The translations under genes and the position numbers were made by a program. From Herbinix sp. (GTDB lineage Bacteria; Bacillota; Clostridia; Lachnospirales; Lachnospiraceae): DNA of 64,000 nt. Below are positions 9,006-61,509 of this stretch, one piece after another. The notes beneath the pieces are model-generated. The model made no database searches, was not told the DNA's origin, and was given only the letters and a program-made list of their open reading frames with translations. The DNA lies in contig JARBTJ010000005.1 of assembly GCA_029240245.1 (NCBI GenBank), positions 1 to 64,000 on the forward strand, in the 5' to 3' direction. How positions within the stretch are numbered: position 1 is the first letter of the stretch; each line of letters begins with the position of its first letter.

Positions 9006-9044
9006 TTATTTATCCTCGTCATCAAATTATTAGATTTAAATGTT

Positions 9045-9164
9045 GGTTAAAGTGTCAAAAGCACCTTCGGAGCTTTCGTGCTACAATATATTGATATGGA
9101 AGCTTGCTTCCGTATCAGTATATTGTAGTATGAAAAGTGCGTAGCACCATTTGACACTTTAACC
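9045..9164 (-). mobile_element. 120-bp cloverleaf MITE-like element, copy 1
   Basis: GGTTAAAG...CTTTAACC termini; flanked by direct repeats AATGTT (9039-9044 and 9165-9170); same orientation as copy 3 (strand sign is arbitrary). Confidence 0.9.
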
Positions 9165-9239
9165 AATGTTAAAAGGTGAACTACACATTTCCGGCTATCC
9201 TATATCGCTATGCAAGCCAGCATGCAATCGCAATATATT
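9165..9239. repeat. Decayed relative of the 120-bp element (variant subfamily), interrupted by copy 1
   Basis: aatgttaaaaggtgaactacacatttccggctat resembles 35052-35093 aaatgtcaaaaggtgctacgcacattccggctat. Confidence 0.6.
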
Positions 9240-45624: not shown

Positions 45625-45641
45625 TTTATACTGTAAATTTT

Positions 45642-45761
45642 GGATAAAGTGTCAAAAGGTGCTACGCACTTTTCATGCTACAATATACTGATATGGAAGC
45701 AAGCTTGCATATCAGTATATTGTAGCACGAAAGCACCAAAGGTGCTTTTGACACTTTAACC
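45642..45761 (+). mobile_element. 120-bp cloverleaf MITE-like element, copy 2 (inverted relative to copies 1 and 3)
   Basis: GGATAAAG...CTTTAACC; direct repeats AATTTT at 45636-45641 and 45762-45767. Confidence 0.9.
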
Positions 45762-45784
45762 AATTTTATTTAATTAAATAGTAC

Positions 45785-57580: not shown

Positions 57581-57770
57581 TCTGATTTCTCCGTCCTTTC
57601 ATACATGAATTTATATAGGCCATTGTGAAACAAAATAATATTTGCTATTGTACATACAACCTATACTATTCTTTCGCTCCATCACTACCTAGTGCTTAAC
57701 TTGTATTACAGGATAATATATAAAAAATTTATAGGATATAACATGAATTTCATACAACTAATAACATTGA

Positions 57771-57877
57771 TTATCTTAAAATTTATCTTATAATATATCT
57801 TATAATATGTCTTAAAATTTATCATAAATTTATCTTAAAATTTATCTTATAATATATCTTATAATTTATCATAGATT
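57771..57877. repeat. 12-bp AT-rich tandem repeat with higher-order duplication
   Basis: Nine units of ttatcttaWaat type; three-unit order repeated after 59 bp. Confidence 0.85.
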
Positions 57878-57968
57878 ATGCTATAGTGAAATCAGAATTT
57901 ATCAGTGAATTACTGGTATATTAATCAGCTTAAGTTTACACAAATGAAATGGAGGAATTCATCACAGC

Positions 57969-61253: not shown

Positions 61254-61289
61254 ATTTACTACAATTTGCAAGTATATATTCTAAAGATT

Positions 61290-61409
61290 GATTAAAGTAT
61301 CAAAAGCACCTTCGGTGCTTTCATACTACTATATATTGATATGTAAGCTTGCTTCCATATCAATATATAGTAGTATGAAAAGTGCGTAGCACCTTTTGAC
61401 ACTTTAACC
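61290..61409 (-). mobile_element. 120-bp cloverleaf MITE-like element, copy 3
   Basis: GATTAAAG...CTTTAACC; direct repeats AAGATT at 61284-61289 and 61410-61415. Confidence 0.9.
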
Positions 61410-61509
61410 AAGATTATTATGTTATTGTTCATTTCAGACATCAGTACCTATGACGACTGTTCCTTTTTTCCTTTAAGACAAAAATGATAACAAGTCTATC
61501 ATCAAAACA

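Follow-up and report, generated by a model that had tools for sequence, protein, structure and literature searches.

What are the three near-identical 120-bp repeats that lie between genes in a 64,000-nucleotide stretch of a Herbinix sp. assembly (the window, hereafter), and what brought them there? The best explanation is that they belong to a family of miniature inverted-repeat transposable elements (MITEs) that were probably mobilised in trans by IS1182-like transposases, a reading that is given a probability of roughly 0.87 on the sequence data. MITEs are a known kind of element, although this family is apparently undescribed as far as could be searched; no literature on MITEs of this host group or of this partner was found in a search of openly available papers.

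Three copies in the window

Copy 1 (9045–9164, plus strand) lies between two minus-strand genes and is flanked by the target duplication AATGTT, at 9039–9044 on its left and 9165–9170 on its right. Copy 2 is inverted (45642–45761, minus strand) and sits between a converging asparagine synthase gene and yajC-like gene, with AATTTT at 45636–45641 on the left and 45762–45767 on the right, and copy 3 (61290–61409, plus strand) has convergent genes on either side and AAGATT on the left (61284–61289) and the right (61410–61415); the duplications themselves have no strand. The first-pass annotation had described all three as exactly 120 bp and indel-free, had given their termini and their perfect 6-bp flanking repeats, and had counted 8 mismatches between copies 1 and 2 and 11 between copies 1 and 3. 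Recomputation returned the same positions, ends, repeats and counts, and copies 2 and 3 differ at 12 positions. The first-pass annotation had also reported no ORF inside the element, and 120 bp would indeed not accommodate a transposase gene. At up to three mismatches the window contains seven occurrences of the end motif, against 0.8 in shuffled sequence (largest 3).

A fourth 120-bp copy lies on the same contig past the window (G000:C39:88137-88256), with the duplication AATTAT. Two other repeats were seen in the window, namely a tandem array of 27-bp units (ATAGTTGAGAATTGYGCTTCATCCTAY) at 1–222, which extends off the left edge, and an AT-rich tandem array of 12-bp units (AAATTTATCTTA and variants) at 57755–57884.

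A dispersed family with exact target duplications

The assembly searched comprises 3.78 Mb in 147 contigs and is about 77% complete. It holds about 36–40 copies of 120 bp (blast with copy 1 returned ~40 places, many of which match on both strands owing to the near-palindromic sequence of the element) and about 13 short forms of 35–37 or 45 bp whose ends nearly touch, making about fifty elements altogether. The ends are inverted repeats of ~17 bp, G[AG]TTNN[AG]GTGTCAAAAG, and a search of the assembly with the end motif found 47 forward and 56 reverse places, compared with 3 and 1 in the reversed-sequence control.

Duplications were scored for 50 elements with both ends present; this set lists 14 short forms, one of which (L034) belongs to a long copy, so that the real number is 13. 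Of the 50, 32 are flanked by an exact repeat of 5 bp or more; when the flanks were re-paired 2000 times, the mean was 2.1 and the maximum 8, and chance is therefore excluded. These exact duplications are mostly of 6 bp (n = 22), the remainder being of 7 bp (n = 6), 8 bp (n = 3) and 5 bp (n = 1). When one mismatch was allowed, repeats of at least 6 bp flanked 40 of the 50 elements, where 6.7 were expected after the right flanks had been re-dealt. Target sequences are rich in A and T, in many cases palindromic (for example ATAAAT, ATATTT, CTTATAG and CTAATTAT) and span 6–8 bp, so the AANNTT target rule proposed from the window fits the three copies there but is too narrow genome-wide. A simple ORF caller placed all 38 copies that have a gene on each side outside ORFs; the flanking genes are tandem at 27 of these intergenic copies, convergent at 6 and divergent at 5.

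On the usual marks of a MITE, the element is short (120 bp) and non-coding with near-perfect terminal inverted repeats, the 50 scored elements are scattered through the assembly, sharply bounded and in most cases accompanied by a target duplication, and both the ends and the duplication are common to autonomous IS1182-like elements of other Clostridia.

Relatives and lineage-specific insertion

Several species of the genus carry diverged 120-bp copies, and in other genomes the same ends flank interiors that are unrelated yet self-complementary. One such element, from a different family of the same order (G039), is 119 bp long; G011 has elements of 189, 71 and 63 bp, and lengths of 120, 118, 110 and 88 bp were seen in other genomes of the order. 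In a viral contig (L261), two phage tail genes are separated by a 120-bp element that is flanked by the duplication CATATAA. The gap between these genes is 148 nt with the element and 11–42 nt (mostly 14–24) in related phage contigs, and subtraction of the element and one duplication leaves 21 nt; this relative shows the occupied and the empty state of one site. It was the one genuine 120-bp element in scans of viral contigs for the end motif, in which nearly all matches were unpaired and attributable to chance, and no DNA similar to the element was found in plasmid and phage collections. Window copy 2 has no counterpart downstream of the yajC-like gene in those relatives in which the gene end is visible; the exact empty site was not recovered, the intergenic DNA being too diverged between species. 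None of the outcomes named in the first-pass annotation as refuting its proposal of a non-autonomous element moved in trans was seen. The flanks are duplicated at most copies, similarity ends at the duplication and does not run past 120 bp, relatives lack the yajC-adjacent copy, and the phage tail relative shows both an occupied and an empty state. That proposal is still the best-backed reading.

Several further arrangements were seen in relatives. One 120-bp element is nested inside a copy of a larger 296-bp element (G009 L114:1583-2009), and G012 has a tandem array with the GTGTCAAAAG end motif every 77 bp and one full element at its end (L078:1195-1512 and L090:1426-1743). The larger element, of about 270–300 bp and with the same ends, has over 40 copies in G009 alone and occurs at L121, L122, L123, L125, L132, L142 and other loci (G009, G029, G027, G015, G012, G003). 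Its core, GAAGTACGTANTGGTACATAAG...CTAAGTACCAACGACTTCA, is near-invariant between species, has covarying stems and no Rfam match, and is also found in two viral contigs (L484:1685-1742 and L485:2641-2698). It looks like structured, possibly functional cargo, and seems more interesting than the 120-bp MITE. A related hairpin core, GGTACTTAG...CTTACGTACC, is present in G005 (L128 and L135, about 1400-1620) and lacks the usual inverted-repeat ends.

A probable IS1182-like partner

An order-wide search with the end motif led to two transposase genes directly within the motif, whose products carry DUF772 and DDE_Tnp_1_6 domains, the domain make-up of the IS1182 family, which is their nearest relative. 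The best NCBIfam model is likewise IS1182 (NF033551) at 97–143 bits, and because these scores stay under its cut-off of 270 bits the partner is named IS1182-like. As the motif itself had led to these first two transposases, relatives were then collected by protein similarity alone, from homologues in the order plus 80 loci from species genomes, giving 66 ISs with enough flank, among them those of Thermoanaerobacterium saccharolyticum, Thermoanaerobacter wiegelii (L349) and several Lachnospiraceae. A contig of Petrocella sp. FN5 in this collection matches without difference a contig of a genome assigned to the host's own order, which points to Lachnospirales as that order. The end seen in the Herbinix assembly was present on both sides of 32 of the 66 at up to four mismatches (0 in reversed sequence) and of 48 at up to five (3 in reversed sequence). 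Exact duplications were found for 16 ISs at up to five mismatches (five of 6 bp, nine of 7 bp and two of 8 bp). The first-pass annotation had assigned the element to no IS family but had put forward, as a check, the finding of an IS with the same termini and 6-bp duplications; ISs of that description are available, with duplications of 6–8 bp and not only 6. In Clostridia the complete ISs with these ends are about 1.8–1.9 kb long and encode a DDE transposase of 520–550 aa.

No IS1182-like transposase gene, intact or relic, was found in this assembly (77% complete). Within the genus, a decayed IS copy survives in G009, where a matching end faces inward and lies about 130 bp upstream of the reading frame; G003 retains a fragment. 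Past the ~17-bp ends, MITE and ISs have no clear common sequence, and the first bases are mostly GG in this genome's MITE and GA in most ISs. Like the lack of a partner gene in the assembly and the NCBIfam scores under the cut-off, these differences weigh against the assignment.

Fold and short forms

The cloverleaf fold claimed from the window copies is right for most copies, the elements of G039 and G176 forming a single long imperfect hairpin in its place. Compensatory changes were found at 20 of the 28 pairs of the central stem when 57 elements from several genomes were compared, and 136 compensatory cells were counted against 39 (maximum 53) after shuffling, a shuffle that ignores the relatedness of the elements; the figure describes the central stem, the side hairpins varying too little for such a count.

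The longest direct repeat in the 120-bp consensus is AGCACCTT, at element positions 16 and 99. Deletion between its two copies would yield exactly 37 bp, the length of the commonest short form, and the simplest explanation is therefore that the 35–37-bp and 45-bp forms are remnants of deletions that took place in situ.

Discussion

We infer from the sequences both that it was the IS1182-like group that moved these copies and the chemistry by which it did so. An IS1182-like DDE transposase, provided in trans, would bind the ~17-bp ends, move the element and insert it with a 6–8-bp stagger at targets that are AT-rich and frequently palindromic; repair of the staggered joint would leave the flanking target duplication. 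Slippage between repeats within the palindrome would then delete part of a copy where it stands and leave the 35–37-bp and 45-bp forms.

Mobilisation by another transposase family of the genus (IS256, ISL3 or the IS4/IS1634-like DDE_Tnp_1) is very improbable. Its best candidate is ISL3, since the genus ISL3 elements start with GG[CT]TCTGTGTCAATAG, similar to GGTTAAAGTGTCAAAAG, but their ends are unlike those of the MITE in length and sequence, and ISL3 elements make 8-bp duplications. With ends that resemble only in part, ISL3 is a useful lead but a weaker candidate than the IS1182-like ISs, which fit both ends and the 6–8-bp duplications at once. IS256 was rejected because the ends of the genus elements do not match, and DDE_Tnp_1 because its loci in the genus lack a paired end match. 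Among other classes, REP/REPIN sequences are palindromes of 20–40 bp that are linked to a RAYT tyrosine transposase and have no target duplication, whereas duplications are present here, and integron attC sites were dropped because their core motifs are wrongly oriented. Retention of the copies as functional hairpins (a terminator, an RNA stability or a regulatory element) whose mobility is past is also improbable. The compensatory changes in the central stem, the intergenic position of every scored copy and the divergence of most copies by several per cent from the consensus would all fit such a role. Yet hairpin-templated repair can also maintain perfect palindromes, the placement has no bias to gene ends, and the strand test for RNA function, an asymmetry between G.T and A.C, is inconsistent between data sets and so lends no support to RNA-level selection. 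No Rfam 15 family matches the element at gathering score, and nothing relevant was found at E ≤0.5 on related loci.

A further reading concerns the 35–37-bp forms, which might be mobile minimal elements transposing on their own ends and not remnants; this is unlikely, if somewhat less so than the other alternatives. Several short forms at unrelated sites have exact 6–7-bp duplications of their own, and the CATAAG end variant, which is also the right end of several ISs, is found at 3 of 20 short-form ends compared with 1 of 74 long-copy ends (p = 0.03, from three short forms). Against this, the 37-bp sequence is the exact product of deletion between the AGCACCTT repeats, and such a deletion would retain the original duplication. 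Only about ten short copies are concerned, and the p value is weak and post hoc. Furthermore, a DDE transposase would struggle to pair two ends so close together. The broader proposition, that selection maintains the fold as the hairpin or cloverleaf substrate of the transposase and that the 37-bp forms are still mobile, is more doubtful again; if it were true, these forms, as two ends and a 3–5-bp linker, would rank with the smallest of transposable elements.

With IS1182-like mobilisation as the preferred reading, widespread unannotated palindromic repeats of the Lachnospirales are now tied to a definite transposase group with 6–8-bp duplications. The same ends are carried by a 1.8-kb IS, by folded elements of 120 to 300 bp and by 37-bp pairs, which makes the role of hairpins in IS1182-type transposition testable.

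Correia elements, RUP and ERIC differ from the present family in their end sequences and partners. They are likewise dispersed, non-coding, foldable repeats, and are reviewed with other palindromic MITE-like repeats in PMC2229807. Closer parallels lie within the IS1182 family. IS1272, a well-studied member, transposes by replacing a stem-loop, so that the target stem-loop is deleted (PMC5678879, PMC4923244), and makes no target duplication (PMC5678879), whereas exact 6–8-bp duplications are the rule here, a difference that counts against an IS1182-like partner. IS1182-related transposases act with or without target duplication, as the Thermoanaerobacter kivui study reports (PMC12056078). That paper, whose subject is a large circular element, reports the T. 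kivui IS as IS1182-like by ISfinder; this IS shares its host genus with the T. wiegelii IS, and the likeness drawn here is one of host and family assignment. IS1272 also belongs to the same broad transposase family as the present partner, and hairpins are its targets; the elements described here are themselves hairpins with palindromic targets. MITEs of the IS1182 family are already on record, for example those of ISMac2 in Methanosarcina acetivorans (PMC3852290). Like the present elements they are non-coding, 100–200 bp long and have inverted repeats that point to an IS1182-type DUF772/DDE partner, but they come from another host group, their ends are 25–26 bp compared with 17 bp here, and their duplications are of 0 or 4 bp (table of PMC3852290) compared with 6–8 bp. 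The strongly folded interior and the short forms of 35–45 bp are seen in the family described here and not in the ISMac2 MITEs.
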